Source: Corynebacterium mustelae (GTDB lineage Bacteria; Actinomycetota; Actinomycetes; Mycobacteriales; Mycobacteriaceae). Taken from it: a DNA stretch of 64,000 bases. Location: assembly GCF_001020985.1 (NCBI RefSeq), contig NZ_CP011542.1, forward strand, positions 1,550,001-1,614,000, written 5' to 3'. The notes under the pieces were generated by a model. The model did not search any database. It worked only from the letters and a program-made list of their open reading frames with translations, and was not told the DNA's origin. Made by a program: the position numbers and the translations under genes. Shown here one piece after another: positions 10,154 to 36,198 of the stretch (positions within the stretch are counted from its first letter, which is position 1; each line of letters begins with the position of its first letter).

Positions 10154-11023
10154 ATGGCGTCTTTTACCCGAAGCAAGGTATCCACGGAATCGACAACTGC
10201 TAACTTCACAGATGCCGAGTTCGCGAAAATATGGCCGAAGCCATTGGAAGAACGTAAAACTACACCATCTTCTGCGCTTGTCGATATTAGATCCGGCGAT
10301 GACCCGCAGAATAAAACAGCGATCCGAGTGATTATCAAATTATCTGATAATCCAGATTGTCAGTACGATATAGACTCACCTGCCGCATTGTCACAGTGGA
10401 ATGACCATGCCGAAATTAGCACCCGACGGCTGTCGGTTGCCCACGTGGCTGGCCGCCATGAGGGGGCTAAACCAACGTTATTATGGCGGCGTAATGGCTG
10501 GATGGAGAAAGATTGTTTTGGTCTCAATGACTACCCAATCATGTCTGCTGAGATTCCAGTACTTACGGAAGTTTCTATAGCAATGCTGGCTTTCCTGGCA
10601 ATTGGTACTCCACATAACCAGGTATCTAGTGCTCAGGTCACCGTACTGAAGGCAGTAAGAGCGCAGAGGCTACCATTATCACAGGTACGTGTCGCAACTT
10701 CGTTTTTGTTGAGATTTCCCCATTGGAAACCTGATACGGCAGTTCGAATTTTCCGTAAGAATCCCAGTGCACTCCCACATCTGTGGCCGATGTTGACAGA
10801 ATGTTTGAATTACGCGGCAACAACCGTGGTTGCTGAAGGTTCGCTACCAGGATGGCTATCTGAAGTAATGTCGGTTATCTACGACAGCCAGCATATTTTG
10901 GTGGAAGCTACCAGACGAGGTTACATCGCAGCATCGGAGTGGAAAAGTTTGAAAACCATCGTAACCGTAAATCAGGATACGACCGCAGTCATTCAAGCCC
11001 AGGAGATGCTTTCCGCTTTCTGA
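10154..11023 (+). CDS. Stand-alone C-terminal module of the paralogue family
   Basis: A 289-residue protein matching only the last quarter of the 1000-residue array proteins. It begins with a short tail, then FAKIWPKP (equivalent to the LWxP opening of the C-terminal module) near residue 23. The middle corresponds to the region before the HWNP segment (here HWKPDTAVRIFRKNP), and the end has LPGWLSEVMSVIYDSQHILVEATRRGYIAASEW and a final QEML. An AGAGG ribosome site (10144-10148) five bases before the ATG suggests it is expressed as an independent protein. It could be a degraded remnant of a full-length paralogue or a genuine single-module form. No signal peptide or membrane segment; function unknown. 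Confidence 0.7.
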   Translation: MASFTRSKVSTESTTANFTDAEFAKIWPKPLEERKTTPSSALVDIRSGDDPQNKTAIRVIIKLSDNPDCQYDIDSPAALSQWNDHAEISTRRLSVAHVAGRHEGAKPTLLWRRNGWMEKDCFGLNDYPIMSAEIPVLTEVSIAMLAFLAIGTPHNQVSSAQVTVLKAVRAQRLPLSQVRVATSFLLRFPHWKPDTAVRIFRKNPSALPHLWPMLTECLNYAATTVVAEGSLPGWLSEVMSVIYDSQHILVEATRRGYIAASEWKSLKTIVTVNQDTTAVIQAQEMLSAF

Positions 11024-11083
11024 TGATTGCTTGGACGTCCTGGGGTTTGTCTTGAGGCGGTTGGATTTCCCAATTGCCATAAG

Positions 11084-11112
11084 AAAAACGCCCCGCGTTC
11101 TAATGCGAGGCG
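11084..11112 (-). terminator. Rho-independent terminator of the PepSY-like lipoprotein gene
   Basis: On the minus strand the 8-bp stem CGCCTCGC/GCGGGGCG (one G-U pair; 11112-11105 with 11096-11089) is followed by TTTTTCTT. It begins 18 bases after the lipoprotein stop codon. Confidence 0.85.
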
Positions 11113-11129
11113 ATCGAGTGCGTAGGACC

Positions 11130-12559: not shown

Positions 12560-12579
12560 CCCCACAGCTCGACTTATGT

Positions 12580-12627
12580 AAGGTGACACTGATGGAACAG
12601 TTTTCTTGTTCTGGTGTCACCTTTTTT
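12580..12627 (+). terminator. Rho-independent terminator after the antitoxin-like gene
   Basis: AAGGTGACAC (12580-12589) pairs with GTGTCACCTT (12614-12623). An inner GAACA/TGTTC stem extends the hairpin, and a T-run follows (12622-12627). Confidence 0.9.
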
Positions 12628-14482: not shown

Positions 14483-15589
14483 ATGGGGTATCGGATGCTT
14501 AGTTCGCGTGACGCCATCTTGCAGTTAGATCGTGAGCTTGCTGCGTTGGGGTGGAAGGAAGCGAGGGTAGAACAAGCAGCGGCTTTGCCATTGGGCTCAA
14601 AAGAATTCCAGCAGCAAGTCGCGTCCATCATGTATCTTCATGACGACCTTCCTTATGGTTTTCTCAGCGACGACTATAACGTTCGATACATATACGGTTT
14701 ACGCTTAGAAAAAGAACAATACTTCTTGCGGTATTGCAGGTATGACGGTCCACCTGAAATTGTCAAGGACATCGTTTCTCGTTGGGATCTGCCTGATATT
14801 CAACGCTTTATCCTCAACTCTTGTTACGGTGAGGGTGATTTTTCCCTTCCTCTCCGCAACGCCGATATTGCGGCAATCATGCTAGTAAACGACCCTGATC
14901 TAGGTTTTGACATACCGCGTTGCCAGGAGTATCTCCACGGGTGGGTATCTGTTGCCGCAAAGGTCATAGCAAAACTCGACAAAGTTGAAAATCCCAATAG
15001 CCTCACATTGCCCACGCGGGAAGAACTTATGCCACGCCTTCAAGAGCATATAGCTGCAGCTTTAGAACAAGGCATTCCCCCGTGGGAGGCGCTGGGCTAT
15101 CTTCTTATCCATGTGAGCAAGGAGGGCCTTTTCGATCGAGCCAGACTCATTGGGCTTTTCCTCAGCAGTATTGAACGAGCACCACGGGTTTTTCTCCGCC
15201 ACACGATGGTTAACATGTTCAAGGAAAACCTCGCAGTTACCGATGCCGAACTATATGAGCACCGACATATCCTCATTCCCCATTTGGTGGCGGGGGATCT
15301 GTTTTTTGTGAAGTCGTTTGGCAGGTGGCTTCTCCCACTCCTTGAGGGTGCCGAGCTGGTTGCCGCCGCCACCGGCGCATTGGGAGTGAAAAATGATGCT
15401 AGAAAGCGAGAGATCCTTCAGATTCTTCTTGATTTCGAGCCACCACCCAAGGTGACCCCAGAACTTGCCGCGTGTGTGCGTTTTTTGCTGAATTCCCCTC
15501 ACCGTGATGGTGCCAAATGCGCGAAGAAATTAAGCCACGCGTGGGGGATTCCCGCTGAACCGGACTACACGAAGCGAGCATCTCACTGA
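14483..15589 (+). CDS. Stand-alone N-terminal module of the paralogue family
   Basis: A 368-residue protein matching only the first third of the array proteins. The signature LAALGWKEARVEQAAALPLGSKE is near residues 19-41. The middle has DIPRCQEYLHGWVSVAAKVIAKLDKV, and the end has TDAELYEHRHILIPHLVAGDLFFVKSFGRWLLPLLEGAEL and GALGVKNDARKREILQIL. It stops at the linker where full-length members continue into WxxxPPLWxVPRF. The closest relative is the next gene. An in-frame ATG at 14495 is an equally good start. It may be a truncated copy or a true single-module protein. No signal peptide; function unknown. Confidence 0.7.
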   Translation: MGYRMLSSRDAILQLDRELAALGWKEARVEQAAALPLGSKEFQQQVASIMYLHDDLPYGFLSDDYNVRYIYGLRLEKEQYFLRYCRYDGPPEIVKDIVSRWDLPDIQRFILNSCYGEGDFSLPLRNADIAAIMLVNDPDLGFDIPRCQEYLHGWVSVAAKVIAKLDKVENPNSLTLPTREELMPRLQEHIAAALEQGIPPWEALGYLLIHVSKEGLFDRARLIGLFLSSIERAPRVFLRHTMVNMFKENLAVTDAELYEHRHILIPHLVAGDLFFVKSFGRWLLPLLEGAELVAAATGALGVKNDARKREILQILLDFEPPPKVTPELAACVRFLLNSPHRDGAKCAKKLSHAWGIPAEPDYTKRASH

Positions 15590-15703: not shown

Positions 15704-18700
15704 ATGAAATCGCAAAACCACACCAGCGAAAACGACATTGCCCGTATCCACCAAAGCCTCGCCGAGCTTGGGTGGAGCACGGCCACCTGTGAGCAGGCGC
15801 TCACCCTCCCGTTGGGGCCCAAAGAATTACAGACTAAGGTGCGTGCACTGCTGCGCCCGCCGTTGTCGATCCCAGACGACTTCCTCAACAAGGACAGAAG
15901 TATCCGGGTTCTTTACGCTATTAGGGCGGCAGAATCCCCAAAGAACATTCTGTGGTCAGGGTTTCATGGTTCCCCAGAAATCTTGGCACAGGCCCTTCAC
16001 AACCAAGGGGTGGGCTATGTTCAAAAGGTTGGGAACCACTTCACCTTTGAGCCCGAAAACGAATTCGAGGGATTCTACTATTCGAATTATCGGCTGGGGG
16101 TCATCACTGCAATAAGTGACCCAGAGTTCAACTGCCCCATCCCAGACAACCCTGACTATCTGCGCGCGTGGGGCCTTATGGCCGCCATCAGTGTGGTGAA
16201 ACTTGATCGTGTGACCAGGTACTTCGACGATGACGAGCTTTCTGCGGAGCTACTGGAGCCCCGCTTCGATGAGCACTGCCAGAAAGCTATCGAACTGGAT
16301 TTACCCCTGTGGGGGCCGTGGGGCTATATCTTGAGCTTCCAGGCGAATCGGGGGCGGTGTGACCGTGCACAACTAATCGCGAGGCTGCTTACCGCACTGG
16401 AAGTGGAACCGAGGACCCAAGACCGCCGCATCATTACCGAAATCCTCACCAAAGAACTCAAGGTCACCACCGAGGATCTTCTTGCCCACCAAGAAGTGAT
16501 CGCCCAACTCCTCGGCACAGCCGACCCAATGTACGTCAACGCGTTCGCCGCCCAGCTCATACCCGCAGTGGAAGAATCAAACCTCTTCGACGTAGCACTC
16601 GGGGCACTGTATGTGAAAACGCTCAAGGGGCAAAAAATTGTGCTTGACGCGTTGGCGAAACGAAACCCACCCAGCCTAGACATTGCCGAATCCTTCGCAC
16701 CGTCCCTGCAAACCCTCGCAGACTCCGCCGACACGCAGGTGGCCAAGCGTGCGGCAGACCTGATGGGGAAGTGGGGTCTGGCGGTGGCGTCGACAAGCGA
16801 AAAACCAGAAACCAGCATGTGGCGCGAAACCCCACCACTGTGGGAGGTGCCACGGTTTGAGCCGGGCGAAGGCACACTCGAATCAGTGATCGCCGCGCTA
16901 AAGGACATGCCGACCAGCCCAGGGTCCGGCTTTGTACCGCGGTCGGTCACCTACTCCGACCTGAGCGTGGAAATTTTCCTCCACCGCTACCACGAGCTGG
17001 CACGCAAAGACGGGCAGGTGGCAAAACGAGCGATCCAGGGCGCGCCGAGCAACATTCGGGGCGGCATTGTGAAGACACGTGCGGAGCGTTCTGGCATTTC
17101 GTGGTGGCAGAATAAGGATGGGTCGCCGGTGGTTCACCGCGACGAGGCGGTGCTGCTGTTTGCGCAGGAAATGCCGTGTATCCTGTCCGCCCCATCGTTT
17201 GAGGACCTGCGGATCACCCTCGACGATTTCCTTGACCGCCTCGAACAGTACGATCAGCTGGGTCGCGCAGTTCAGGGGCCGGATCTGGTGCTTGCGCTGC
17301 TGCGCCTCGACTTGAGTGGGGCAGATGTGGATGCGGCGAAGCAGCGGCTGAAAAACCTCAACGTCCCCATAAAGAAAAACAGCTTGGGGTCGAAAACACA
17401 GCAGGAGCCGAAAGGAAACGCGGCGGTTGTTGCCTCCATCTACCTGTCTGGCCCATACGTTGAACCGCCGCTGAGACTCGTGGAGGGTATGTGGTTCCCT
17501 AAAAAACTCGACACCCCACGCGCCATCAGCTCACTGCACGATCAGCTGCGCAAGGCCGCCGCGATCGAAAGGGAGATTGATCCTGCCGCTGTGCCCAACT
17601 GGGGTGATGCGGCATGGGTGAATCTGTGTTGGTCCCCCACGCTCCCCGTCAACGCGCTGGGGAAGATGGCGGCGCAGGCCGCGCGTCTGTCTCGCCCGTT
17701 CGGGCCGGGGCTTGCGGCGAACATGTTGGAGATTCAGCGCCCCACCCGCCGTGGCGAGCTGGTAGGGGTGCGGGAAGCGCTGTGGCAGTCCTGGGAGCGA
17801 GGCCTTCTTCGCCCCGGCGTGGCTGACCTGTGCTTTCTCTCCACCTTCAAGGGGGTGGCTGCAACGTGGGAGGAGCTTGCCCGCGACGGTTTGTTGTCCG
17901 TGGTGTGGCCGCTTTTCGACGCCATCCTCACGTATGCCTCAGAGTGCAGCTCTCCTACGGCTGGGGCAAGTGAAATAGCGGAAGCCATGGCGAGGCTTGC
18001 CCCACACGTTGTGGCGGCGGTGGATTCGGGGGTGGCTGATAAGTCGGCACTTGAAGCACCTGGTGCACGCGCGTGGTCTGGGAAAACCGGCTCCTCAAAG
18101 GTGGTGAAAGCCGCGAAGCAGGTGGTGGAAGCTTTAGGTGTGGTAGCTGGTGTACAAGCGCAACCCCAGCCAGTGAAGAAGCCTAAGGGTCGGAAAGTAT
18201 CAAATCTTACAGAGTTGTGGGCTCCTGACGAATCCACCACGGTGGTGTTTCACCCGGAAACAACAATGAAGGTGATAGCTGGTGAAACCTCATCCACAGC
18301 AAAAGAATTGTGGACTGAATTTCAGCTTCCTAATTATCCCGACCAGTCTTTCATCATCCCAGTTCCGATGATCTACAGCATTGATGTAAAAGAAAGTAAT
18401 TGGCGGGTCTATGAACGCCAAGAAACTCCACTCCGCTACAACCACCGTCGCTACAAGAGCATGTACTGGGATGGCACCAGCATGGTGGTGACGAAAGGCT
18501 ACGACACCACACCGATCGACTCACCGCGCCCGGCACCCCAACCAGTGATTGTTGCTGCACTTGCGGGCCTTTCCGCAGGCACCGGCGACCGATCCTATTC
18601 CACGTACGCATTGCTGCGTGGTCTCGTCAAACACAAACGGATCGGTACCTCATCTTGTAGGCAGGCTGTCCAGGTTCTTATGGCATCGGGTGGACTGTGG

Positions 18701-18991
18701 AGCCCCGCTAAAGCAATGTCGATAATCAACGGTATACCCGAGTTCCTGCCACAACTGTGGCCGCTTGTCACCGACACCATTGCCTTCGCGGCAGGGGAAA
18801 AGACCACCCCGAGATGGCTAAATAAGGTGTTGGACGCGGCATTGGCTAACTCAGAAAGCTTGGTTTACGGCACCGAGGCTGGGCACATTAAGGCTGAAGA
18901 TTGGGCGGGGCTTGTCACCATCGCCGACCAGAAGAAGGCCAGTGCCGCCCGGACAAAAGCACAGGAACTGAAAACAGCCCTCAACCTTTAA
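15704..18991 (+). CDS. Array paralogue 1, full length (1095 aa), unknown function
   Basis: Modules in order: N-terminal, with LAELGWSTATCEQALTLPLG (about 19-38) and alpha-helical HEAT-like pairs to about 365 (ALYVKTLKGQKIVLDAL); central, opening W373 in WRETPPLWEVPRF, then IPCILSAPSFEDLRITLDDFLDRLEQY, GPDLVLALLRLD, RGLLRPGVADL and VWPLFDAIL (about 733-741); C-terminal, opening LTELWAPDES (about 836), with PRWLNKVLDAALANSE and TKAQEL at the end. A TAGGAGA site precedes the ATG. No signal peptide or membrane helix, so probably cytoplasmic. I recall DUF6493/DUF7824/DUF7825 proteins with this layout, unverified. One copy of GCTTTTCGACG encodes the LFD of VWPLFDAIL. Confidence 0.75.
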   Translation: MKSQNHTSENDIARIHQSLAELGWSTATCEQALTLPLGPKELQTKVRALLRPPLSIPDDFLNKDRSIRVLYAIRAAESPKNILWSGFHGSPEILAQALHNQGVGYVQKVGNHFTFEPENEFEGFYYSNYRLGVITAISDPEFNCPIPDNPDYLRAWGLMAAISVVKLDRVTRYFDDDELSAELLEPRFDEHCQKAIELDLPLWGPWGYILSFQANRGRCDRAQLIARLLTALEVEPRTQDRRIITEILTKELKVTTEDLLAHQEVIAQLLGTADPMYVNAFAAQLIPAVEESNLFDVALGALYVKTLKGQKIVLDALAKRNPPSLDIAESFAPSLQTLADSADTQVAKRAADLMGKWGLAVASTSEKPETSMWRETPPLWEVPRFEPGEGTLESVIAALKDMPTSPGSGFVPRSVTYSDLSVEIFLHRYHELARKDGQVAKRAIQGAPSNIRGGIVKTRAERSGISWWQNKDGSPVVHRDEAVLLFAQEMPCILSAPSFEDLRITLDDFLDRLEQYDQLGRAVQGPDLVLALLRLDLSGADVDAAKQRLKNLNVPIKKNSLGSKTQQEPKGNAAVVASIYLSGPYVEPPLRLVEGMWFPKKLDTPRAISSLHDQLRKAAAIEREIDPAAVPNWGDAAWVNLCWSPTLPVNALGKMAAQAARLSRPFGPGLAANMLEIQRPTRRGELVGVREALWQSWERGLLRPGVADLCFLSTFKGVAATWEELARDGLLSVVWPLFDAILTYASECSSPTAGASEIAEAMARLAPHVVAAVDSGVADKSALEAPGARAWSGKTGSSKVVKAAKQVVEALGVVAGVQAQPQPVKKPKGRKVSNLTELWAPDESTTVVFHPETTMKVIAGETSSTAKELWTEFQLPNYPDQSFIIPVPMIYSIDVKESNWRVYERQETPLRYNHRRYKSMYWDGTSMVVTKGYDTTPIDSPRPAPQPVIVAALAGLSAGTGDRSYSTYALLRGLVKHKRIGTSSCRQAVQVLMASGGLWSPAKAMSIINGIPEFLPQLWPLVTDTIAFAAGEKTTPRWLNKVLDAALANSESLVYGTEAGHIKAEDWAGLVTIADQKKASAARTKAQELKTALNL

Positions 18992-19056: not shown

Positions 19057-22000
19057 ATGGCACACAAAGATTTATCCCATGCGGTTGAACTGTTTCGAGA
19101 GCTTGGTTGGGCGAAGGCTCAGCCGAAAGATACCTCTACGTTAGGTGTGGGGACTCCCGAGCAGCAGGCAGTGGCGAAACGGGGGTTAACAAGTGGTGAC
19201 TGGTACGGGAAAGATTTCAATCGCGCCCGTGAACTTCACGGGATTGACCTTTATATGATGATCCTGTTTGCACTGCGTCTCGGGGTGAACCCAAGCCGTG
19301 TCATTCGTCTCTTCCGAAACTATGAGGAGAGTACCGATTATCGTCTGATCGCTGAGCTTGTGGCGCTCAATGGGCAGGATTATGCGGAGCGTTTTATTGA
19401 GGAGGCTGTGCGTTTCCGCGAATTTGAAGGCCTGGAGGCAGAATTGGGCAACGAATTTACCGTGTCAGTATTCTTCCTAGTAACGCAGCATTTTCCTGAG
19501 CTGGAAATGCCGGTGGATAGAAATTATCTCGAAGCGTGGGCGTTGTGTGCAGCAGTGCAGATGGGAATACCTGGGGCTAAAATGCGGGGACCACGGGGAC
19601 AGTTTCCTACGTGGGAAGAACTGTTGCCCACATTGAGTGCTCACCTCGAGCAGTGCGCTAGTGCGGGGGTGGAAATGTGGAACGCTCTCGGCAATGTCAT
19701 TGTCGAATGTGTTCAGCGTCAACTGCTAAGCCGTGACACGGCTGTGAACTACGCGATTCGTGGACTTGATGCTGCTACAAGGCAGGGGCAGCGGCGGCGA
19801 ATGGTGGCTGTTTTGTGTGACGAGCTTGGGGTTAGTGATGCGGAACTTGTTAAGCATTGTCAGGTGCTGAGTGGGGTATTGTCTGCGGCTGAGCCGGTGG
19901 TGGTGTCGGCGTTGGGGTTGCGGCTTATAGGGTGTGTGCCGTCGGAAGAGCTGGCGGATGTTGCTTTACCTATGTTGTATGTGTCCACGTTGAAGGGACA
20001 GCGTGATGTTCTTTCTGCCATTGTTCAACGAGGTGATCTACCGGAATCAGCACAAATTATTCTTCAACCACGTATGAGTGAACTTAAGTCAAGTACGGAT
20101 AAAAAGGTTGCCGATGCGGCAACTAGGCTCCTTGAGCAGTGGGGTAGTGGGGTGACGGATTCAGGTGGCGAGGAGGGTGAGTTTTATTCGTGGAGTAATC
20201 CGCCCTTAGTGTGGGACCTTCCGCGTTTTCAGCGGATCGACCCCACCTATGATTCACTTATCGAAGCGCTGTCAAGCAGGGATTTTGTGCGGGAAAGCTC
20301 CTATCCGCAACCAATGTGGCTTATCACTACCGAATCCGAACAGTGCTTGGTGGCGTTTAACCAACTTGCACAGGATGATCCCCAGGCCGCGCAGCAGCTG
20401 CAAACCGTGATAAAAAACTGCGGAATATGGGTGCCGCGCATGCGATCCGACGTGGAAAATTTTTGTTTCGACCCGAGAGAAAGCTCGCCCTTGGCGCGTA
20501 GACAGCGGGATTTGGCGTGGGTGCTAGGTTCTGTTCCGTGTCTGGTGTCGGAGCCTAGTTTCGTTGATTTGAGCATTAGTTTTTCTGATCTATTGGATCG
20601 TTTTGCGGCTTACGATCGTGCGGGGGTAAGTATTGTTTGTTCGGATCTGATGGTTGCGTTGTTGCGGCTTAATCTTGATGATCTTGACGGCCTTGATATT
20701 TCTGCGGCTGTGGAAAAGGCGCGAGCTTATTCCACCCCAGTGATTCATTCTTTTGCTCAGCCGGTTGATCGTACCGCTGGTGAGATCCTTGCCGACTACC
20801 TTGTCGATCCCTACCACGTACCCGCCCTCGTGGAGCGGACACTGGTTTCCAAATATGGCGGCATGTATGCCCCTGAAAAAGTTGTGTCACCCCAAAGCCT
20901 TGCGGAATTCCCCCAAGATGTTACCTACGACAGTAACCATGGTGATCTGAACCCAGCAGCAACTCCACGGTGGGGTGACGCAACATGGACGCGGATGCGC
21001 CACTACCCGCAGGCAACCAATAGTGATCAAGGCGTACTCGCCCGCCAAGTCGCGCGAAGCGCTAGCCCACTAGGTCCTGCCACCGCGATCAACCTCATTG
21101 GCTTGGTGCGACCCACAAAGAAAGGTGGGGTCAGCCTTGCTCATGAGGCACTTATGGATGCGTGGGTGCGGGGACTTCTGCGGCCAGAAACACTTGATGT
21201 GCGCTACCTTGACTGGACGGTTGACCCTGCCAAAAATTATTCCGGTATGGCGGACGTTGCCCGAGGTCTTGCCGAAACTGGGATGCTCGCCTTGGCGTGG
21301 GGCATGTTGGACAACATTTTGGCGCAGTCTGCTAAACCAAGTGGAAAGACCGCTGAAATCGCCGAAATGATGGTGCACCTTGCGCCCAGTGTTGCCCACG
21401 CTATTGCCAACGGTTCAGCACCTTCGTCTAGTGCACAGGTGCCTTCTCTGCGCAGGTTCGCGGAGGCTAAGGGGAATAATAAAACCACCGTGGCGGCCCG
21501 GAAGGCGATTAAGCTTCTTCCTGAATTAACCAGTGAGGCAACAGACGAACCATGTGAGCGTCACCCAGAATCGGCCCTCACGCTGGAGCACTGGGGTGTG
21601 GAAGTTGAGGAAGTGGTGAACGATTCGGTTGATCTTTACCTCACCCACGCCATTTCCAGCCCGAGTGCTGTCACGGTGGGTGTGCGTGATAGTAACCACC
21701 CAAAGCTGACTTTTGAGGTGAGTTTGTGGGATTTCGATTTCTTTTCCAAATACGGCAAATACAAAGTGGAGTCCTACCAAGGGAAAGAATTCAACCACTA
21801 CTACCAGATGCGGTGGGATGGGATCACGTGGCATCTTGAGCCGCAAACTGCGCCACGGCCTACCTCTAACGAATGGTTGGATCCGGAACTTCCAGTGTTC
21901 TCTTCGCTGGTGTACATCCTTTTCGGGATGATGCATTCCGGCAGCCGCGCAAAAAATGCTCTCGATGTTGCTACCAAGTTTTTGATCGAGGAGAAAATTA

Positions 22001-26103: not shown

Positions 26104-29100
26104 CCACCATGGACGCACTCGACCACCTACACCACGCACTACAGATATTTACCGAACTGGGGTGGCATGGTATCACCCCAGGGGCAAACATCTGCACCCT
26201 CCCAATGGGAACCGCCCAGCAACGCGAAACAATCGTCGCCGCCCTATCCAACCCCCACTGGCCGAGCCTCATCACAGACCCAACCTACACCAACACATTC
26301 GAAACCCCACCCCACACAGACATCCCCGCACTCCAACTATTCGCAGTCCGCGCAGGCGTCGCCGCAAAATACTTCACTCGTTGGCCCGAAGTACCACACC
26401 GCGCCGCAGTACTAGCAGTAGTCAAAGAACGCGGCATAAGCTACATCAATTCCTTCATCAAACACAGCAACCCCGAACTCACCATCGACGAACTCCCATT
26501 CGCCACCCACTACGCAGCCGAATCCGTCCTCCTCGTGCACGAAGGAATACCCGTACCAAACCTACCCACCTACATAAACAACTGGGCACTTTCAGCCATC
26601 CCCATACTCGCCCGCCGCTACACCAAACGGTTCCACACAACCCCTAACCCCGCAATAACAGAAGACCTCATGCTGTCACGCTACAAAGAACACATAACAA
26701 CCGGGCTCCACCACCCAAAACTAGCCTTCGGCCCATTCTGGAAAATACTCCTAGCCGGCGTAGACCGAGGAATGATCGACCGCCAAACCGCAGTCGACTA
26801 CGCAATACGAGCACTCGACACCGCACACCGCAGACGACACAAAAACCAATGCGTTGAAATGCTTTTCGACGACCTCACCATCACCGACACCGAACTGATA
26901 AACCACATCGACTCCCTCGAACCCTACATCGCAAGCGGCGAATACGCCTACATCACCAGCTTCGGAACCCGCCTAATTGCCACCGCACCACGCACCAAGC
27001 TCCCCGGAATCGCACTCGCGGCTGCACACGTAAACTCCATCGGCGGACAAAACGCAGTACTATCCGCACTCATCGAACGTGGAGAATACCTACCCCAACT
27101 CAGACCCCGATTAACCGAACTCGCACAATCCCGAGACACCACCGTCGCCCACCGCGCCAGCCGACTCATCGGCGAACCCCCGCAACCACAGCCAGAAATC
27201 ATCCCCAACATCTGGCAACCCAAACCCCGAAAATGGCGTGTACCAAAACTCACAATAGGAAAAGCAACACCAGAAGCAGTCACCCACGCGCTACACAACA
27301 TAACCATCGACGACTTTGCCACCGACATCAACCGCGAAAAATTCCTCGCACTATTCGTCAAACTAGCAGCCAAAAACCTCGACGAAGCCCACACAGCAGT
27401 AGAAAACGCACACGAAGGCCTCATAGCCAAATGGGCCACAAACAAACTCGAACGATGGAGCAGAAAACACCGAACCACACCACTACCCACCGTCCGCGAA
27501 CACGCAATCCTTACCAACATCGGCACCATACCCTGCCTTTTATCCCAACCCACCCGACAAGACCTCAGCATCGACTTCCGCGACCTTAACAAACGACTCC
27601 AACAATACGAAAAGAAAAACGCACTCGTCATCGAACCCGACCTCATCCTCGCCCTCTGCCGCCTTGACCCCACAACCATCCCACCAAACACAACAGTCGA
27701 ATGCAGCTCACAAATCCTGCTCGACACCAAAGTAAAACTCGGCCGCAACGCCGGACAAGTAGTCACCGAATACCTCACCGACAGCTACAAAGAACCAGAA
27801 CTCGTCCCAAACCAATGGGAATACCTCCACCCACTCCCCATCAAACAACCCCTATCCCTTGACGGAATGCCCAACCGAGTAGGCGGCGGCAACCACCTAC
27901 CTATCGGAGTATTCCCACACTGGACAACCGACGCCGCATACACCGGCATCACCGGCGGACGCCGAATCACCGGAGCCCGAATGGGCATCCGCGCCCAACA
28001 AGCAGTACGAACCAACACACCACTAACCCCCGGACAAGCCATCAACCTCCTCGGACTCCTCAGAACCTCACCCCGCGGCGACCACATCGAAGGCGCCTAC
28101 GAAGCCGTCCAATCAGCCTGGCACAATGGACTACTACGCCCCGGAAAAACCAACGCGAAACTACTCTACTGGCACACCCAAGTAACAAACTTCCGCGGAC
28201 TTGCCCAACCACTAGAACAACTCGCCAAGGACGGACTCCTCTCCGTCGTCTGGCCAGCCCTAGACGACCTCCTCGGCATAGCAGCACGCCGCGAAGGCGC
28301 AACACTAGGCGCCTATGAAGTCGCACAAACCATGGCAACACTCGCCCCAAGCGTCGTCGCAGCAGTAACCGCCAAACAAGCACCCGTCACCGCACTGGAA
28401 GTCCCCAACCTGCGCGAAATCGCAAGCAGAGAAGGCAACTCCAAAGTACTCAAAGCCGCAAGCACCGCCGTCGCACTACTACCAGAACCCGTACAAAAAC
28501 TACGCACCCCCAACAAACCCAAAAAAATAACCCTGACAGAATTCGAAACACTATGGCCACCAGAAATCAACAACCGCCCCGCTAACCCTGACAACCTCAA
28601 CCTCCACGTAGAAGAAGGAACCATCGTAGAACTACAAACAACCGACAACACATATCAGGTGGAAGACTTCAACCTATTCACCAAACACCCAGCATTCTTC
28701 CTATGGCAAGTCACCACCACCAACAACACCCCCGCATGGCTAACATGGCAAGACTCACAAATAGTCGCACTAGAAAAACCCCAATACAAACGCCCCGAAC
28801 CACCCACCTCCATACCCGACTCCATCCTCGCCACCGCACTCATCAACCTCAGCACCGCCGCCGGATACAACACCGGACACCAATTCATCACCCGACTACT
28901 CAACAACAACCAAATAACAGCAGCAAGCATCACCAACGCCATGCGCACCATCTGCCCCTACCTAGAACACTGGAACCCAACCATCATGATGCGCCTAATA
29001 CGCAACGAACCACAACACATTGCAACCCTATGGCCCATCCTCACCGAACTCATACAACACGCAGCCACCCAACCACACCTACCACAATGGACAAACGCCG

Positions 29101-29545
29101 TACTCGACATCATCACCACACAACAAACAGCACTACTACTGGCAATGGGCCACAACTACATACAACCCCAACGCTTCTTAGCACTCATCGACATCGCACA
29201 CGCGCCCGTGAAACAACCATCAGCAGCACAGAAAAAAGCAACCACCCTAGCCACCGCATTCGGCCTCATAAAACCAGAAACACACCAATAACCACAAACA
29301 CCAAAAACTAAAAGCACATTCACGACCACCAGAACAAAAAACAACGGAAATCACCCACATGCCCCACACCCCAACAACCACCAACGCACACACAATCTTC
29401 AACCACCTAGGATGGAACAACGCCACACTCGCCGACACACCACACCTGCCGCTAGGCACCCTAAAACAACAAGAAACCGCACGCCACGAACTAACAAACA
29501 CCCACATCGACTTCAGAAACCACAACCTCGTCATCTTCGCCACCC
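26040..29545 (+). other. Segment of extreme A+C bias on the coding strand
   Basis: The coding strand is very poor in G and T. At 28861-28920, 47 of 60 bases are A or C, against 18 of 60 at 29941-30000 in the next gene. Third codon positions in the gene at 26109 are almost all A or C. The bias begins near the end of the preceding short gene and stops abruptly about 190 bases into the gene at 29359. Boundaries are approximate, read by eye. Confidence 0.7.
26109..29291 (+). CDS. Array paralogue 4, full length (1060 aa), A+C-biased
   Basis: Three modules: N-terminal, with FTELGWHGITPGANICTLPMG; central, opening IWQPKPRKWRVPKL (about 368), with IPCLLSQPTRQDLSIDFRDLNKRL, EPDLILALCRLDPTTIPP, NGLLRPGKTNAKLLYW and SVVWPALDDLLG; C-terminal, with FETLWPPEINN (about 812), ALEKPQYKRPEP, HWNPTIMMRLIRNEPQHIATLWPILTEL and LPQWTNAVLDII. 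Paralogue 3 is its closest relative. Its DNA differs sharply from its neighbours, with G and T nearly absent from third codon positions, suggesting different ancestry or mutational history. It starts five bases after the preceding stop without a clear ribosome site, so it may rely on coupling. No signal peptide. Confidence 0.75.
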   Translation: MDALDHLHHALQIFTELGWHGITPGANICTLPMGTAQQRETIVAALSNPHWPSLITDPTYTNTFETPPHTDIPALQLFAVRAGVAAKYFTRWPEVPHRAAVLAVVKERGISYINSFIKHSNPELTIDELPFATHYAAESVLLVHEGIPVPNLPTYINNWALSAIPILARRYTKRFHTTPNPAITEDLMLSRYKEHITTGLHHPKLAFGPFWKILLAGVDRGMIDRQTAVDYAIRALDTAHRRRHKNQCVEMLFDDLTITDTELINHIDSLEPYIASGEYAYITSFGTRLIATAPRTKLPGIALAAAHVNSIGGQNAVLSALIERGEYLPQLRPRLTELAQSRDTTVAHRASRLIGEPPQPQPEIIPNIWQPKPRKWRVPKLTIGKATPEAVTHALHNITIDDFATDINREKFLALFVKLAAKNLDEAHTAVENAHEGLIAKWATNKLERWSRKHRTTPLPTVREHAILTNIGTIPCLLSQPTRQDLSIDFRDLNKRLQQYEKKNALVIEPDLILALCRLDPTTIPPNTTVECSSQILLDTKVKLGRNAGQVVTEYLTDSYKEPELVPNQWEYLHPLPIKQPLSLDGMPNRVGGGNHLPIGVFPHWTTDAAYTGITGGRRITGARMGIRAQQAVRTNTPLTPGQAINLLGLLRTSPRGDHIEGAYEAVQSAWHNGLLRPGKTNAKLLYWHTQVTNFRGLAQPLEQLAKDGLLSVVWPALDDLLGIAARREGATLGAYEVAQTMATLAPSVVAAVTAKQAPVTALEVPNLREIASREGNSKVLKAASTAVALLPEPVQKLRTPNKPKKITLTEFETLWPPEINNRPANPDNLNLHVEEGTIVELQTTDNTYQVEDFNLFTKHPAFFLWQVTTTNNTPAWLTWQDSQIVALEKPQYKRPEPPTSIPDSILATALINLSTAAGYNTGHQFITRLLNNNQITAASITNAMRTICPYLEHWNPTIMMRLIRNEPQHIATLWPILTELIQHAATQPHLPQWTNAVLDIITTQQTALLLAMGHNYIQPQRFLALIDIAHAPVKQPSAAQKKATTLATAFGLIKPETHQ

Positions 29546-32490
29546 GGCTCGGGATACCACCGCGCCGGGTTATAGAGATTGCAAGCCAGATCCCAAGCGA
29601 CATATTGGCAGCTGTTATCGCAGAACACGGGGATCAGTACTGCCATAAGTTCATAACTGAGGCGTGTACGAGTGGCTCCCGAATTGGTGAGCATGGCGTT
29701 AGCTGGTTCGGAACGGCTGCCGTTGATGCGTTGTTGCGGTTGGCAGAAAGTGACCCAGATGTGGTGGTTCCAGCGCTGTCGAACGTAGAGTACATGAAGG
29801 ATTGGGCGGTAGTCGCAGCGCGCAGCTTGGAACCTGATGCGGTCGCGGCAACACCCCGCAAGCATGAACGGGTCGTGCCGCAGGAGTTGATTACGTCCAC
29901 GCTTGCTAGACACGTGCGTGCTGGCTTCGAGTTGGGTTTGGCTGCGACTGGTCCGTTCAGTACGGTTGTTTCCGCTGGTTACCGCGGTGGGTGGCTTGGG
30001 CGGGAAGAGACGATCGCGTATATATGTCAGGCGCTTTCCATGGTGAATCGGCCTGGTGATATTAAACGGTGGGTGCAGTGCCTGACAGGAGATATAGAAA
30101 TAGCCGACGCGGAAATATATGCGCAGCGTCAAGTTCTTAGTACGTGCATTGCTACGGGGCAACCTGTGGTCGTCGAAAAGCTCGGCGTTCCGCTTATCCG
30201 CACAGTAAGCGACAGCGAACTTGTTGATATCGCGCTGCCCGCGTTATACACAAAGACCAAGAAAGCGCAGAAGTTGGTTATCGCCGCGCTGAAAAGTCGT
30301 GTAAAACCCGCGTACGAGACGGTGCAACCGCTGGTGGAACGACTGCGTGAGGTGGCGGAGGGGAGCAGTTTGTTAGAACAATGGGGGATAGGCTCAGGGA
30401 CTTTTGCCGCAAGTGCCCACGACGCGCCCACCTTTATCTGGCGTGACGCACCGGCACTGTGGAAGATCCCGCGTTTCGCGCCGATTCCGGCAACCAGTGA
30501 ACAGATCGCGCGGATTTTGCCGCTGGTCGTCGCCGCACAACAACCGCTTTCGACCACTCGGGGCAGTTTTGGCGACGGCACCACCGAAAAATTTGTCCTA
30601 GCGTGCCACCGCCTGGCCGCAACCGACCCCGAGGCGCTACGCCGAGTTGTGGCGGGTGTTCCGGCGGAGCTTTTCGACGACATATTGCGTCAGTGGGCAG
30701 ATGGCTGCCTGGAGATACCACGCTCCTTCCGCAAACTGTCGCTTATCGACGCCCGCCTCATCGCGCTTTTAAATGCAGCCAATCAACTACCATGTGTGCT
30801 CTCAGAACCCAGCTACGAGGATCTTTCCATCACTTTTGATGACCTCTTGAACCGACTTAAACTCTATGAAACCCGCAATCAGCCAGTCGCCGAAGCGGAT
30901 CTTGCAACCGCGCTCTCTCGCCTCATCATCCCCGAATCGGTTATGGAACTGCCGGAACTTGAGATCCGGGTCATGAACCTCAGTGGTGAGATTCTCCATC
31001 CGACGGTCGGCACTGTCTTAAAAAATTACCTGGCTGACCCGTTTGTCGAACCAGCATTGGACTACCAGCAACCAGAAGTAAAGAAACGACCGAAGTCGTT
31101 GCGGACGGAACCCGACGGCATTGCGCCCAATTACTTTTTCTACGCCACCCCGCAACTGTTTCCTCGTTGGCAATACGCTCACCTTGGCGGCCTTCATGCC
31201 CACAGCCCAGCTGCGCCGATTATCGCAGGTCAGCTTGCATTCCGTGCCACCGAACTGCATCCGGCAGCAGCCATTAATTTCATAGGAAGCTGTCGGAGCC
31301 ATCCAGAGATTATCGATACCCTGCACACGGCCTGGCAACGCGGACTCATCAACATAGCAACGATGGACGCAACCTATCTGGATTGGAAACCAGAATTAAC
31401 GAATCTGCAAGCGCTTGCCGCCACCCTCATCGACATTGCCGAAGCCGACATGGTGGCATTAAGCTGGTTCGCCCTCGATGCGGTCGTGACCAAAGCAGTT
31501 ACTACCCACAGCCGCATCCCAGCAGGGCTTACCGACATTATTGATGCAATGGCAACACTTTGCCCATCGGTTAAAGCGGCGGTGGCTGATGCAACCGCAC
31601 CACAAACTGTTTTGGCGGTACCTGGATTACGAGCTCTGGCTGCTAAAACCGGCAATGCCAAAGCCATCACCACAGCCCGTAACGTCGTGGATACACTCGG
31701 ACCAATCCTGACAGACGACAGCCCAATGCCGTTGGGTTCCCACCTGGACGATACCGAATATGAGCAATTGTGGTCCCCGCGAAAAACTCCCGAGATTACC
31801 GATTCCCTGGTAGTTGAAGTTACCGAATCAGGCGTGATCACCCTTAGTTTTCCCGCCGATCCGGCCACCTACTACCATATTCGCAGCGTGCCCACATTAG
31901 GTGCGGTGGTCTTAGACCAAAGTTATCCCAGCACCAGTAAAACGCAGCGGAAAACCGGAAGCTTTATCTACTGGGACGGTGAAGCTATCCAACACGAGCC
32001 AGCAAAACAGTTCAACGGATTCCTATACCACAAGAACACCGGTGCTCCTAAGTCTCTTCCGCCAAGCCTTGTGGCGATTTATCTGGCCGAACAGGGAACT
32101 GAGAAATGGAATGACGAAACCTGGCAACTACTAAGCACACTCGCCACCACAGGTGGCATAGCGGTGAGCGCCGTGCAAAACGCGGTACGCATCTGTAGCC
32201 AACACCCCGCCTGGAATCCAGCCATACTAGCCGAAAAGACAGTGCACAACCCGAAACTCATGCCTGTTTTCTGGCCGCTGCTTCTTGAGGCTTTGCCTGC
32301 CACAAACCCCAGAAACACCAACCGGATACTTGAGGTCATCGCAACTTCTCACACGACTCTTATGGAAGCTACGCGCCGGGGGCTGATTCCACTCTCAAGT
32401 TGGGATGGAGTGCGGCAACTGGCCTTAACCGGCACACCAAAGAACAAAGCTAAAGCCCAAGAGCTAGTAGCAGCACTGCCTCCTGCCTGA
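29359..32490 (+). CDS. Array paralogue 5, full length (1043 aa), mosaic composition
   Basis: The first 60 or so codons (signature FNHLGWNNATLADTPHLPLGTLKQQ) are in the A+C-biased style of the preceding gene; the rest is ordinary. The reading frame is continuous across the switch (about 29545). The central module opens FIWRDAPALWKIPRF (about 359), with LPCVLSEPSYEDLSITFDDLLNRLKLYE, ADLATALSRL and VALSWFALDAVVT. The C-terminal module opens YEQLWSPRKTPE (about 801) and ends LPLSSW-like (LIPLSSWDGVRQLAL) and KAKAQELVAAL. The N-terminal third shares MKDWAVVAARSL-type text with the gene at 33679, so those two are sister copies. It carries two copies of the CTTTTCGAC word in opposite orientations (30172, 30670). 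Confidence 0.75.
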   Translation: MPHTPTTTNAHTIFNHLGWNNATLADTPHLPLGTLKQQETARHELTNTHIDFRNHNLVIFATRLGIPPRRVIEIASQIPSDILAAVIAEHGDQYCHKFITEACTSGSRIGEHGVSWFGTAAVDALLRLAESDPDVVVPALSNVEYMKDWAVVAARSLEPDAVAATPRKHERVVPQELITSTLARHVRAGFELGLAATGPFSTVVSAGYRGGWLGREETIAYICQALSMVNRPGDIKRWVQCLTGDIEIADAEIYAQRQVLSTCIATGQPVVVEKLGVPLIRTVSDSELVDIALPALYTKTKKAQKLVIAALKSRVKPAYETVQPLVERLREVAEGSSLLEQWGIGSGTFAASAHDAPTFIWRDAPALWKIPRFAPIPATSEQIARILPLVVAAQQPLSTTRGSFGDGTTEKFVLACHRLAATDPEALRRVVAGVPAELFDDILRQWADGCLEIPRSFRKLSLIDARLIALLNAANQLPCVLSEPSYEDLSITFDDLLNRLKLYETRNQPVAEADLATALSRLIIPESVMELPELEIRVMNLSGEILHPTVGTVLKNYLADPFVEPALDYQQPEVKKRPKSLRTEPDGIAPNYFFYATPQLFPRWQYAHLGGLHAHSPAAPIIAGQLAFRATELHPAAAINFIGSCRSHPEIIDTLHTAWQRGLINIATMDATYLDWKPELTNLQALAATLIDIAEADMVALSWFALDAVVTKAVTTHSRIPAGLTDIIDAMATLCPSVKAAVADATAPQTVLAVPGLRALAAKTGNAKAITTARNVVDTLGPILTDDSPMPLGSHLDDTEYEQLWSPRKTPEITDSLVVEVTESGVITLSFPADPATYYHIRSVPTLGAVVLDQSYPSTSKTQRKTGSFIYWDGEAIQHEPAKQFNGFLYHKNTGAPKSLPPSLVAIYLAEQGTEKWNDETWQLLSTLATTGGIAVSAVQNAVRICSQHPAWNPAILAEKTVHNPKLMPVFWPLLLEALPATNPRNTNRILEVIATSHTTLMEATRRGLIPLSSWDGVRQLALTGTPKNKAKAQELVAALPPA

Positions 32491-32566: not shown

Positions 32567-32953
32567 ATGATCTATGACAATTTAATTCGTCGCCACGAAC
32601 GTAGAGTCGCTAAAGAACGTGATCGTCGGGCTAGTTTGCTTAACAATACGAAGTATCGCGAGCTTTTCCAGTTTTTCAATTCCATCGGAATTGTCCGAGG
32701 ACAAGTAAAAACGCTCACAGAATCGCGGCTATATTGGACGGAACTTGCAGAATACGAATACGTACCTGGTTACACAGCAGATGGTTGTGGCGGGCCCATC
32801 AAATTCAAGGAAATTGAATGCGTACTGGTTGATATTCCGCACAAAGTCTCACCGGATGTGATTGAAACGGGTCTCGGTGCACTGGGCCAGTTTTCCTGGG
32901 AATGGGTCGGAGATCAGAACAACCAGATTCGTATTGACGCCTACAGCAGGTAA
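32567..32953 (+). CDS. Small protein of unknown function, possibly DUF6678-like
   Basis: 128 residues with a basic N-terminus (RRHERRVAKERDRRASL), then LLNNTKYRELFQFFNSIG, a central Trp/Tyr-rich stretch (SRLYWTELAEYEYVPGYTADGCGGPIKFKEIECVLVDIP) and a C-terminal WEWVG. The NNTKxxEL opening and the P-IKFKEIE-hhh-D line remind me of the DUF6678 family, often found as small cytoplasmic proteins near variable loci. I cannot verify this. A GGAG site precedes the ATG. It lies 76 bases after paralogue 5 on the same strand and faces a convergent broken gene. No signal peptide. Confidence 0.6.
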   Translation: MIYDNLIRRHERRVAKERDRRASLLNNTKYRELFQFFNSIGIVRGQVKTLTESRLYWTELAEYEYVPGYTADGCGGPIKFKEIECVLVDIPHKVSPDVIETGLGALGQFSWEWVGDQNNQIRIDAYSR

Positions 32954-33541: not shown

Positions 33542-33678
33542 GTTTTGGCCTTTCAAGCTGCGATAATCAATGTTTTTTAATCTTAATGCAAAATTATGCA
33601 AAACTTCTCGGGAATGCTGGTATTAGTGGAATCTGGTCGAAAAACCGCATGCCGTACCAGTAGTCGAAAGAAACACTT

Positions 33679-36198
33679 GTGAAAATTAATCCGAAACTCG
33701 AAATCGCCGTTACAGTCTTTCGTAACCTTGGTTGGGATACCGCTGATCGTGCCGAAATGTGTTTCCTGCCGTTAGGAGATAAGGACCACCAAAAGGCGGC
33801 GTTAAGCGGGTTGAAATCAGGTGATCTCACGTACTGGAGCAACGGCGAATTGCGGCCAGTACCGCCACTGGCTGATATCGACCTAACGATGTTTCGCTGT
33901 TTTGCCATTCGGCTTGGGATATCCGCGAACCGCGCTCGAAATATTGTCACGCAATCTGACATGGAAGTGGTCGCAGCAGCTGTGGCCTGTCGGGACGACG
34001 ATTTCGTGCGCTCATTTACCGAAACCGTGTGCAGGAAAACGAACCGTTTCGGCGAGCATAACGCCACATTCTATGGCGAGATTGCTGTCACCGCGATGTG
34101 CGTTAAGGAATTACCGCCGATTGAAAATTTTGAGTATCTCAAAGACTGGGCGGTTTTTGCTGGCCGAAGTTTAGGCGGTGCCACTGAACCCACGTTATTT
34201 CCGCCAGAAGCACAGGACATCCCAGAAGAAATACTCCTGCCAACTGCGATCGAGCACCTTGTGGCGGCGATCGAACACGGAGTTCGGGTATCCGGCCCGC
34301 TCGGTGCCGCGATTACTGGCATTATTGAACGCGGGTTGGTCCCGCCAGAAGGCCTCATCGGCGCTGCGATACGTGCGCTGGAAGCTAGCGTGCGGCCAAG
34401 CGATAGACGACGCTGGATCGAAATACTTACCAACTATCTTGGTTTCGAAGGCGAGACACTTTATCGCCATCGCGTGGATATATATCCGCTGATTGCCACC
34501 AGCGAATCGCTATTTGTCACTACTTTCGGCATACCGCTGCTTGCGAACACCTCGGACAGCGGCTTAACCGATGCTGAGCTTATCGACGTCGCACTAGGTT
34601 GTCTCTATTCATCAACCTTGGCCGCGCAACGTGGCACGGTGCAGGCCTTAAGGCGTCGACAAGCACCAAGCGTTGAGGTTAAAGCCGCACTGGCAGCCCG
34701 GCTTACGGAACTCGCACATTCAACAGACGATAAACTTGCCGACGCGGCGGGCACGCTCCTGAACGAATGGAATATCGAAGAGGAACGGCAACCAGCCGTT
34801 GCTAACTCCGAACCTACTGTGTGTTGCTGGCAACCAACTCCGCCGACATGGTCGCCAGCTCGATTTGAGAAAATCCCAGCAACCATAGAGTCGTTATCAG
34901 ATCTGATTCGAACAATGAGAGGCCGAGCCAGCGAATCGGACTTATATTTCGGGCAGCTTCCCGATGATCTCATAACGGAACAACTCTCGTTAGCCATCTA
35001 CGAGCTGGCTAAAAAATCGCCGACTGACCTTCAATCGTTGACACAGATGGTCGGCATCGAGCCGTGGTCAACCATCATTCGGGACTGGGAACGCGGCAAA
35101 TTAAAAACGAACCTGGGTGTTAAACAATATTCCATTGGTGCCGCTCGACTCGCGGCACTGATGGCAACTGTCGAAGAAGACCTGCCTGCGGTTTTGTCGG
35201 AGCCATCTTATGGTGATCTTTCCATCGATGTAGATGATCTCATTGAGCGAATCCGCTGTTACCAAAAAGCCAACAGGCCCGTACAAGAATCCGATTTGGC
35301 GTTAGCGCTTGCCAGGTTGCGCGAGGTTGCACCTGACGATAACGCCGCGCGGGACAGCTTCATTGCTGAACGCGGAATCCAAGACTTGGACGTAGCCGTG
35401 CGCAGTAATTCTGGTGAAATAGTAGGGATAACCGCAGGCACGATCGTTGCCAAGTATCTTAAAGATCCGTTCACGGAGGAAACCGTGACAAGTAGCAAAG
35501 AGTGGGCGAATGGAAAAACCCCTGCCGTGGTCAGCGCACCGCTATCGCTTCGGCAGAAGCCGAATCGGCTGGTGAAAAACTGTAAGTTCGCGCCGGAACC
35601 GGGCACTTTTCCGACATGGCGGGACGTGACCGCGCGCGGCTTGGTATGGAAGGCGAAAGACTTGGGTGCGGCTGCGATATTGGCTGAGCAATTTGCGCGG
35701 TCATCTGAACCGCTGAGCCCTAGTACTGCGATAAACCTGCTCGGCTTGCTGCGGCCTGCCGCGCACCCCGCATCGGCGCGGGTAGCGGCGGCAGTCGATA
35801 CCGCCTGGCACCGGGGACTGTTGCTACCAGGCGTTCCGGATTTCACGGCGCTGGATTGGGCGGAGCAGAAAACCCATCTCGCGTTGTTTGCTGCGGGGTT
35901 AGCAGGCTGTGCCGAAACCGGCATGTTGGCGCTGGTGTGGCCCGTGCTTGACGACGCCTTAAGCTATGCGGTCACACAGGCATCCGTGCCTAGCGGTACT
36001 GCAGAAATAGCGGAGGTCATGGCGCATTTTGCCCCCGATGTGCGAAGCGCGGTGGTACAAAAGATTGCACCACCGGAGTCGCTACTCGTACCAGGCCTGC
36101 GCGAATTAGCCACACGGAGCGGAAACAGTAAAGCCGTGAAATGGGCGAAAGCTGCGGTCGCGGAGCTTGACGCTGCCTGCGAACCGAAGCGGGATTAG
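33679..36198 (+). CDS. Array paralogue 6, lacking the C-terminal module (839 aa)
   Basis: GTG start with GAAAG upstream. The N-terminal module has FRNLGWDTADRAEMCFLPLGDKDHQ. The central module opens CCWQPTPPTWSPARFEKIP (about 382), with LPAVLSEPSYGDLSIDVDDLIERI, SDLALALARLRE, RGLLLPGVPDFTALDW and LALVWPVLDDALSYA, then SGTAEIAEVMAHFAPDV and VPGLRELATRSGNSKAVKWAKAAV. It stops exactly at the linker that precedes LWxP in full-length paralogues. The end is clean, with no visible remnant of the C-terminal module downstream because the convergent pflA starts to overlap at once (4 bases). The N-terminal third is closest to paralogue 5. Confidence 0.75.
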   Translation: MKINPKLEIAVTVFRNLGWDTADRAEMCFLPLGDKDHQKAALSGLKSGDLTYWSNGELRPVPPLADIDLTMFRCFAIRLGISANRARNIVTQSDMEVVAAAVACRDDDFVRSFTETVCRKTNRFGEHNATFYGEIAVTAMCVKELPPIENFEYLKDWAVFAGRSLGGATEPTLFPPEAQDIPEEILLPTAIEHLVAAIEHGVRVSGPLGAAITGIIERGLVPPEGLIGAAIRALEASVRPSDRRRWIEILTNYLGFEGETLYRHRVDIYPLIATSESLFVTTFGIPLLANTSDSGLTDAELIDVALGCLYSSTLAAQRGTVQALRRRQAPSVEVKAALAARLTELAHSTDDKLADAAGTLLNEWNIEEERQPAVANSEPTVCCWQPTPPTWSPARFEKIPATIESLSDLIRTMRGRASESDLYFGQLPDDLITEQLSLAIYELAKKSPTDLQSLTQMVGIEPWSTIIRDWERGKLKTNLGVKQYSIGAARLAALMATVEEDLPAVLSEPSYGDLSIDVDDLIERIRCYQKANRPVQESDLALALARLREVAPDDNAARDSFIAERGIQDLDVAVRSNSGEIVGITAGTIVAKYLKDPFTEETVTSSKEWANGKTPAVVSAPLSLRQKPNRLVKNCKFAPEPGTFPTWRDVTARGLVWKAKDLGAAAILAEQFARSSEPLSPSTAINLLGLLRPAAHPASARVAAAVDTAWHRGLLLPGVPDFTALDWAEQKTHLALFAAGLAGCAETGMLALVWPVLDDALSYAVTQASVPSGTAEIAEVMAHFAPDVRSAVVQKIAPPESLLVPGLRELATRSGNSKAVKWAKAAVAELDAACEPKRD

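Follow-up and report, generated by a model that had tools for sequence, protein, structure and literature searches.

Our results describe a family of large, predicted alpha-solenoid proteins in Corynebacterium mustelae, nine genes of which stand in one array between polA and rpsA, and its relationship to a protein in which a SWIM zinc finger is combined with a predicted clamp fold. We propose, with a probability of roughly 0.4, that a shared clamp-SWIM hub is served by many alternative solenoid subunits and that the system is probably defensive. The proposal is built on computation, which covers family membership and copy number, the partnership of the genes, their predicted folds, and the turnover and constraint of the copies.

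Results

An array of nine related genes

The window, i.e. the whole stretch of 64,000 nucleotides that was analysed, contains the following features. Tree groupings refer to a family tree rooted arbitrarily, and the name polA was taken over from an earlier reading of the sequence.

7237-9999: polA, array flank
10154..11023, plus strand: family gene, module 3 (C-terminal) alone, 289 aa (profile model 821-1080, E 2.3e-29)
11130, minus strand: PepSY protein gene among the family genes
12977: amidase gene among the family genes
14483..15589, plus strand: family gene, module 1 alone, 368 aa (profile model 9-362, E 2e-46)
15704..18991, plus strand: full-length family gene, 1095 aa; falls together in the tree (support 1.0) with the copy adjoining the SWIM gene of genome G196
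19057..22374, plus strand: full-length family gene of 1105 aa; its companion in the tree is 818751, a copy from another cluster
22374..25436, plus strand: full-length family gene of 1020 aa; placed in the tree as sister to 26109, at 39-41% identity
25681..26103, plus strand: mini copy, 140 aa, both family ends joined (profile model 5-78 plus 1014-1083, E 9e-23)
26021..29545, plus strand: DNA segment with 71.6% A+C, reaching past the end of 26109 and covering about 60 codons at the start of 29359
26109..29291, plus strand: full-length family gene, 1060 aa; third codon positions extremely A/C
29359..32490, plus strand: full-length family gene of 1043 aa; modelled by AlphaFold as almost wholly helical (mean pLDDT 80)
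32567..32953, plus strand: small ORF among the family genes, 128 aa; no match in Pfam, 97% identity in the sister species
33679..36198, plus strand: family gene of 839 aa without the last module (module 3); its DUF7824 match (E 3.2e-7) is the strongest that any array protein gives in Pfam
41180-42640: rpsA, opposite array flank, with four S1 stretches

An earlier note on this DNA had described nine related genes, all on the plus strand, and every reading frame was indeed found at the start listed above; for 19057 and 22374 the ORF list also offers earlier starts in frame, by 13 and 37 codons, respectively. The five genes called full length, at 1020-1105 residues, measure 1020, 1043, 1060, 1095 and 1105 aa. 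The six large proteins align with one another at pairwise identities of about 27-39%, in agreement with the high divergence noticed earlier, and the family profile built from these six recovers 10154, 14483 and 25681, so that each of the nine carries all or part of one three-module plan. The anchors LGW, IPCLLSxPS, RGLLRPG, VWPLFD and LWPxLTE are visible both in the translations and in the conservation profile.

The partial genes differ in their history. The counterpart of 14483 is a separate gene in the sister species too (354 aa, 68% identity, dN/dS 0.17), with dN below dS (Fisher p 8e-35), and the mini copy 25681 has an ortholog of 137 aa there (dN/dS 0.24; dN below dS, Fisher p 3e-6). Reciprocal match search found no ortholog of 10154 in that species. 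For 900 nt of the A/C-rich stretch the predicted RNA fold reaches -159 kcal/mol, about half of the -299 obtained for a control gene stretch, which matches expectation from composition (z -1.0; control z 1.2).

Family identity and predicted fold

Kinship with DUF6493, DUF7824 and DUF7825, considered in the earlier note, holds in part. DUF7824 (PF25148) is matched above its curated cut-off by one of the nine array proteins, 33679 (30.7 versus 27.5 bits), while five others give matches below the cut-off (E 2.4e-5 to 0.11) and three give none. DUF6493 (PF20103) is matched weakly by 15704 only (E 0.0014; best score 18.3 against a cut-off of 25 bits), and DUF7825 was not found by Pfam search in any of the nine. 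Relatives are annotated by NCBI as "DUF6493 family protein", and on sequence comparison the array family belongs to the uncharacterised DUF6493/DUF7824 group. The literature listings, which cover few subscription journals, gave no function for DUF6493, DUF7824, DUF7825 or the SWIM partner; among the matches listed for SWIM with retron, type XIII or sliding clamp, nothing concerned the SWIM-DUF6493 pair.

Recognisable catalytic motifs had been reported as lacking, and no convincing enzyme match emerged. The alpha-helical appearance of the proteins is borne out by the nearly all-helical model of 29359. Karyopherins, CAND1, FANCI and other alpha-solenoids share its general helical-repeat architecture, but their fold match is weak and generic, and the solenoid profile has no sequence match in the PDB.

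Genome-wide expansion

The C. mustelae genome contains 47-48 family ORFs, amounting to 3.2% of its length and forming several clusters beyond the array; for at least four of these ORFs the finder chose a start that lies too far upstream, and 15 of 47 are shorter than 700 aa. Copy number is about equal in one sister species. Within the genus, 201 genomes were sampled, one per species, and 10 of them have family matches (E up to 1e-6). In this presence screen no more than four candidates were scored for any genome, at E 1e-6, copy numbers being taken from separate counts. Six of the other nine matching genomes were recounted, G144, G156 and G186 lying outside this recount; the five besides the sister have 1-3 matches each, which may be pieces of one gene. 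These relatives belong to the same sequence family, most DUF6493/DUF7824 relatives having the same SWIM neighbour, whereas C. mustelae has 47-48 copies in several clusters, numerous truncated forms and no copy directly adjoining its SWIM gene.

A search of genome contigs for loci related to the array returned the sister locus only. In single-protein tblastn searches 26109 had no match in phages and 29359 none in the plasmid collection; the latter search is of limited reach, because DUF6493 genes do occur in that collection. A rve-type transposase ORF adjoins the copy at 382 kb, and one DDE transposase is present among 71 cluster neighbours. PADLOC assigned members of the same 71 neighbours to seven families, six of them with one member each.

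Copy turnover and constraint

All 35 family ortholog pairs between C. mustelae and the sister species have dN/dS of 0.09-0.39 (ORFs under 80 aa and pairs of at most 60% identity were left out), and when 26 pairs are pooled and the protein is divided into bins along its length, the values are 0.17-0.30. As every pair and bin lies below 1, per-site diversifying selection is not supported at gene or bin level, and the selection for variety postulated in the earlier note finds no support for residues. Variety is found in whole copies, which differ between the two species and are gained and lost. Thirteen ORFs of C. mustelae have no ortholog in the sister, some of which may reflect assembly gaps, since the draft assembly of that genome comprises about 60 contigs; two of them, 2203136 and 2144912, are pieces rather than missing copies, because they match parts of already paired sister genes (86% and 77%). 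Four large sister copies (823, 835, 840 and 1096 aa) have no ortholog in C. mustelae, and as its genome consists of 3 contigs, their absence is better founded than the reverse case. The 823-aa copy is a distant sister of 1450588 in the tree.

Duplicates that accumulate and decay without any role would explain the 15 short ORFs, and the two transposases near family copies would fit as well. We regard such neutral amplification as quite improbable: each of the eight array copies that can be paired (10154 has no ortholog) has dN below dS, even the 140-aa mini copy, and the copies are deeply diverged yet retained in both species.

The SWIM partner

MoxR or VWA proteins are the partners expected for genes of this kind; both were absent among the best 25 of 36 families from 55 flanking genes. 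The recurrent neighbour is a SWIM protein. Its homologues occur in 23 of 246 genomes of the class (E 1e-30), and a family gene adjoins the SWIM gene in 21 of these 23 loci, a count for which the family profile was iterated on the same loci. The uniterated own-genome profile matches at 8 of 10 DUF7824-seeded loci, and NCBI annotation shows SWIM and DUF6493 neighbours in three of four annotated records; neighbours at the relatives' loci were otherwise taken as longest ORFs, not curated genes. The SWIM protein is present in nine records of the plasmid collection, some of which may be chromosomes in view of their sizes (206 kb to 11.9 Mb), and found no match in phages by single-protein tblastn. 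C. mustelae has one clamp-SWIM gene.

Residues 36-278 of the SWIM partner are predicted to adopt a two-domain fold of the PCNA type, at about 12% identity; in the predicted whole, this PCNA-type clamp is joined to a winged-helix domain and to a zinc finger of the SWIM type. Conserved positive residues lie in predicted helices, and comparison of the two species (dN/dS) shows strong constraint on the protein. It resembles PCNA sliding clamps in this predicted fold and differs from them in being bacterial, in its fused winged helix and SWIM finger, and in that no clamp loader was seen adjoining. In the PDB its profile found a single non-significant match (E 2.5).

The predicted clamp and winged helix and the strong constraint would also suit a machine for DNA maintenance or regulation acting on cellular targets, with the expansion reflecting specialised roles. 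Patchy presence, in 23 of 246 genomes for SWIM and 10 of 201 for the family, speaks against it, as do the occurrence in plasmid-collection records and the turnover of copies, and we hold it to be unlikely.

Relation to type XIII retrons

A type XIII retron consists of a reverse transcriptase (RT), a SWIM protein and a repeat protein (WGR plus repeat). The C. mustelae SWIM protein matches the PADLOC model SWIM_XIII (E 2e-42), and hhalign gives 99.6% for its alignment with a retron-linked SWIM protein of Methylobacterium, most of the clamp-like half included. A retron whose RT had been overlooked is nevertheless most improbable, and a retron proper is largely ruled out, neither the C. mustelae nor the sister genome having a match to RVT_1. 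A scan for YxDD motifs at 42 relatives' loci gave 14 ORFs, one of which (Methylobacterium L092) is a confirmed RT, the other 13 being judged from motif context only. The solenoid ORF of the Methylobacterium retron-like locus, which by eye we take to be the WGR plus repeat protein, has no profile match to the array family and an hhalign probability of 0.3%, although distant repeats may escape such tools. The two systems are alike in combining homologous SWIM proteins with a large predicted solenoid, and differ in the RT match and in the detectable sequence of that solenoid.

Discussion

Polyimmunity offers another explanation of a large, diverged gene set: the family would consist of very large immunity proteins, many versions of which act against toxins of competing strains. 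Other family clusters contain two SUKH/SMI1 genes, one above the Pfam cut-off, as well as ankyrin proteins with sub-cut-off Imm-NTF2 matches (n=2), DUF4241 (n=3) and DUF6138 (n=2). Raised dN/dS (0.15-0.47) was found in both SUKH genes and many neighbours, others having 0.05-0.07; ORFs below 150 aa and pairs with at most 60% identity or 80% coverage were left out, and a few of the 58 pairs may be non-orthologous. PMC3482391 describes polyimmunity loci of both homogeneous and heterogeneous type, in which HEAT and ankyrin immunity proteins occur. They form arrays of functionally similar genes, and the SUKH, ankyrin and NTF2-type genes of the other clusters recall them. The array genes differ in that none matches a Pfam immunity family and that the partner elsewhere is usually a SWIM protein (21 of 23 SWIM loci). 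Moreover, an unsystematic scan of neighbours recognised no polymorphic toxin gene, and about 1000 aa seems, in our judgement, large for an immunity protein. We therefore consider polyimmunity rather unlikely.

For the preferred reading, a clamp-SWIM hub with many solenoids, we infer physical binding between the partners, clamping of DNA, target recognition and a role in defence. The clamp-SWIM protein would be a common DNA-associated hub, on which the solenoids would dock as alternative recognition or adaptor subunits, perhaps through a shared solenoid region around residues 478-521. Each solenoid might sense a different target, for example a phage or plasmid protein, and then activate the hub. 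Variety would arise as whole copies are gained, lost, truncated or exchanged.

In its widest form the idea becomes doubtful, if still arguable: bacteria may possess a modular surveillance system in which a PCNA-like clamp that carries a SWIM finger works with interchangeable solenoid sensors of 1000 residues, type XIII retrons may have borrowed the clamp half, and a Corynebacterium lineage may have expanded the sensors to nearly fifty, one clamp with many clients. If a PCNA-fold protein of bacteria is linked with a large solenoid family and shared with a retron-like locus, it would unite retron accessories, DUF6493 and the expansion.

The array between polA and rpsA

All nine related genes that the earlier note had described (named here by their start positions in the window) were found again, on the plus strand and with rpsA on their right. 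Five of the nine are full length and 33679 lacks the last module, while profile matches reduce 14483 to the first module, 10154 to the last and 25681, of 140 aa, to the two ends joined. The six large proteins share 27-39% identity. Pfam DUF7824 was detected in six of the nine products, above cut-off in 33679 and weakly in five (weakest E 0.11), and DUF6493 matches one of the nine weakly. Two short forms, 14483 and 25681, persist in the sister species, and per site their amino-acid changes are outnumbered by silent ones (Fisher p 8e-35 and 3e-6, respectively); they therefore look like working genes and not like decaying copies.

Family size and copy turnover

When compared with the whole genome of C. 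mustelae, the 26109 protein gave 60 matches in several clusters. ORF calling in the fetched clusters yielded 47 family ORFs (48 by a second profile): 18 reach 1000 aa or more, 14 fall in the range 700-999 aa and 15 are shorter. Together they occupy 112.7 kb (3.24% of the genome), a slight overcount as some ORFs overlap. Family matches are present in 10 of 201 sampled Corynebacterium genomes, C. mustelae included. A recount covering six of the nine other positive genomes gave 50 matches in the sister species (G135, a Corynebacterium MAG) and one to three each in G196, G059, G054, G043 and G039. The following ORFs of the C. mustelae contig (G000:C1) were observed besides:

2131583-2136166, 1527-aa ORF: complete family protein with its C-terminal part present a second time; the sister ortholog has 1090 aa
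2185454-2186449, family ORF after an ORF that we read as a transposase
2206170-2207780, family ORF sharing with the previous one an extra N-terminal stretch of ~200 aa (84% identical DNA), which has no Pfam match
2162197-2166033, minus strand, 1278-aa ORF within a family cluster: no match at E 0.01 in Pfam, NCBIfam or PADLOC

Reciprocal orthologs above 60% identity were obtained for 35 of the 48 C. mustelae ORFs against 41 sister ORFs, leaving 13 and 6 ORFs, respectively, without an ortholog. Two sister-only units, of 1096 and 835 aa, are located between copies whose C. mustelae orthologs directly adjoin, so clusters gain or lose whole copies. A tree of 78 proteins does not unite the window genes in a single clade: 15704 groups with the SWIM-adjacent copy of G196 and 19057 with a copy from another cluster; within the array, 22374 is paired with 26109 at a support of 1.0 and 29359 with 33679 at 0.95. 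Most duplications are probably old, since long branches separate the copies.

Divergence and selection

The array is colinear with that of the sister at 90-92% DNA identity; polA to its left has 88%, and a stretch with the amidase gene and part of 14483 has 78%. Silent divergence in the array is 0.10-0.44, except in 14483 (1.24), and climbs inside 15704 to 1.48 at its end. In most of the array it is thus lower than in the genes to the left (polA 0.64, PepSY gene 1.21, amidase 1.60; window 7237-36198), which suggests exchange between species: we infer that the array was swapped by recombination after the species split. The right border of the swap is unclear, divergence there being mixed (two pfl-type genes 0.32 and 0.52, methyltransferase 0.83, rpsA 0.05, further on 0.12 to 1.79).

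The selection for variety proposed in the earlier note finds no support in substitution rates. dN/dS is 0.09-0.39 across 35 family ortholog pairs and 0.17-0.30 in bins along the protein (26 pairs), compared with a median of 0.105 in 58 other pairs and 0.03 in polA; genes near family clusters, SUKH among them, often have 0.15-0.47. Judged from these ratios, the family evolves faster yet still under constraint, not under diversifying selection.

Nucleotide skew of gene 26109

Third codon positions of 26109 consist of A 0.38, C 0.53, G 0.06 and T 0.03. The segment 26021-29545, with 71.6% A+C on the coding strand, crosses the gene end into the next gene. A survey of 20 sampled 20-kb stretches (400 kb in all, with 272 ORFs of 150 aa or more) gave one other run of such strength (segment score 423 vs 385 here; next 152):

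G000:C1 ~912092-918530, phage-type replication genes (VapE-like and SNF2-type helicase), third positions close to those of 26109

The VapE-like gene of this region is 59.5% identical to Corynebacterium phages. The parallel with phage DNA is only partial, because Adelaide, a related phage, disfavours T and prefers C without being rich in A. The sister copy of 26109 has the same skew, and A-C exchanges make up 61 of its 122 fourfold-site differences (in four other array genes, 4-10 each). One idea for the skew is a stay of the gene in phage-like DNA, though the 26109 protein has no match among phage records.

The SWIM partner and the relation to retrons

Among nine fetched loci of low-copy corynebacteria, six have the family gene next to a gene for a SWIM protein, one of them divergent. 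The SWIM protein is encoded in 23 of 246 genomes of the class, C. mustelae included. At SWIM loci outside C. mustelae, a same-strand family gene is adjacent in 21 of 23 (19 behind SWIM, 2 ahead); SWIM is likewise adjacent in 8 of 10 further genomes that match DUF7824. Recurrent among 55 flanking genes are PhoD (7) and acetyltransferases (2-3). A natural fusion joins SWIM-protein residues 46-330 and a family protein in one polypeptide. NCBI annotation places DUF6493 after SWIM in Diaphorobacter (two tandem DUF6493 genes), Asticcacaulis and Streptomyces sp. HUAS 31, and lacks this order in S. cadmiisoli. The iterated family profile matches these annotated DUF6493 proteins (E 2e-20 to 2e-66); uniterated profiles match only the Streptomyces one.

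C. mustelae has a single SWIM match (G000:C1:2194193-2195563), whose product is predicted to combine a PCNA clamp fold with a winged helix and shares 99% identity with its sister counterpart (dN/dS 0.017). PADLOC SWIM_XIII matches this protein (E 2e-42) and that of Diaphorobacter (E 2.9e-52). In type XIII retrons, a reverse transcriptase is accompanied by a SWIM protein and a repeat protein. An unannotated retron-like locus was found in Methylobacterium bullatum:

L092 4345-11370, 1080-aa ORF and reverse transcriptase with a SWIM gene between them

Its SWIM protein is homologous to that of C. mustelae (hhalign 99.6%, 366 columns), the alignment spanning residues 70-444 of the query and hence most of the clamp half. 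The reverse transcriptase of the locus is closest to that of retron Ec86 (E 5e-39). The 1080-aa ORF, in our reading a WGR domain followed by a solenoid, has no PDB match and no detectable relation to the window family. RVT_1 has no match in C. mustelae or its sister (2 genomes). The window family is therefore retron-like in its partner and not itself a retron.

Possible role of the family

Family membership, copy number, gene partnership, turnover and constraint are established here by computation, and the folds are predictions. The main rival to a role centred on the SWIM protein is polyimmunity, because other family clusters hold genes for SUKH, DUF4241, DUF6138 and ankyrin proteins, the last with weak matches to NTF2 immunity families; polyimmunity loci, as well as HEAT and ankyrin immunity proteins, are described in passages of PMC3482391. 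According to the reading we propose, the clamp-SWIM protein would be a common hub and the many solenoids its clients. Each solenoid would bind this hub and may sense a target, the hub may clamp DNA, and the system may serve in defence.
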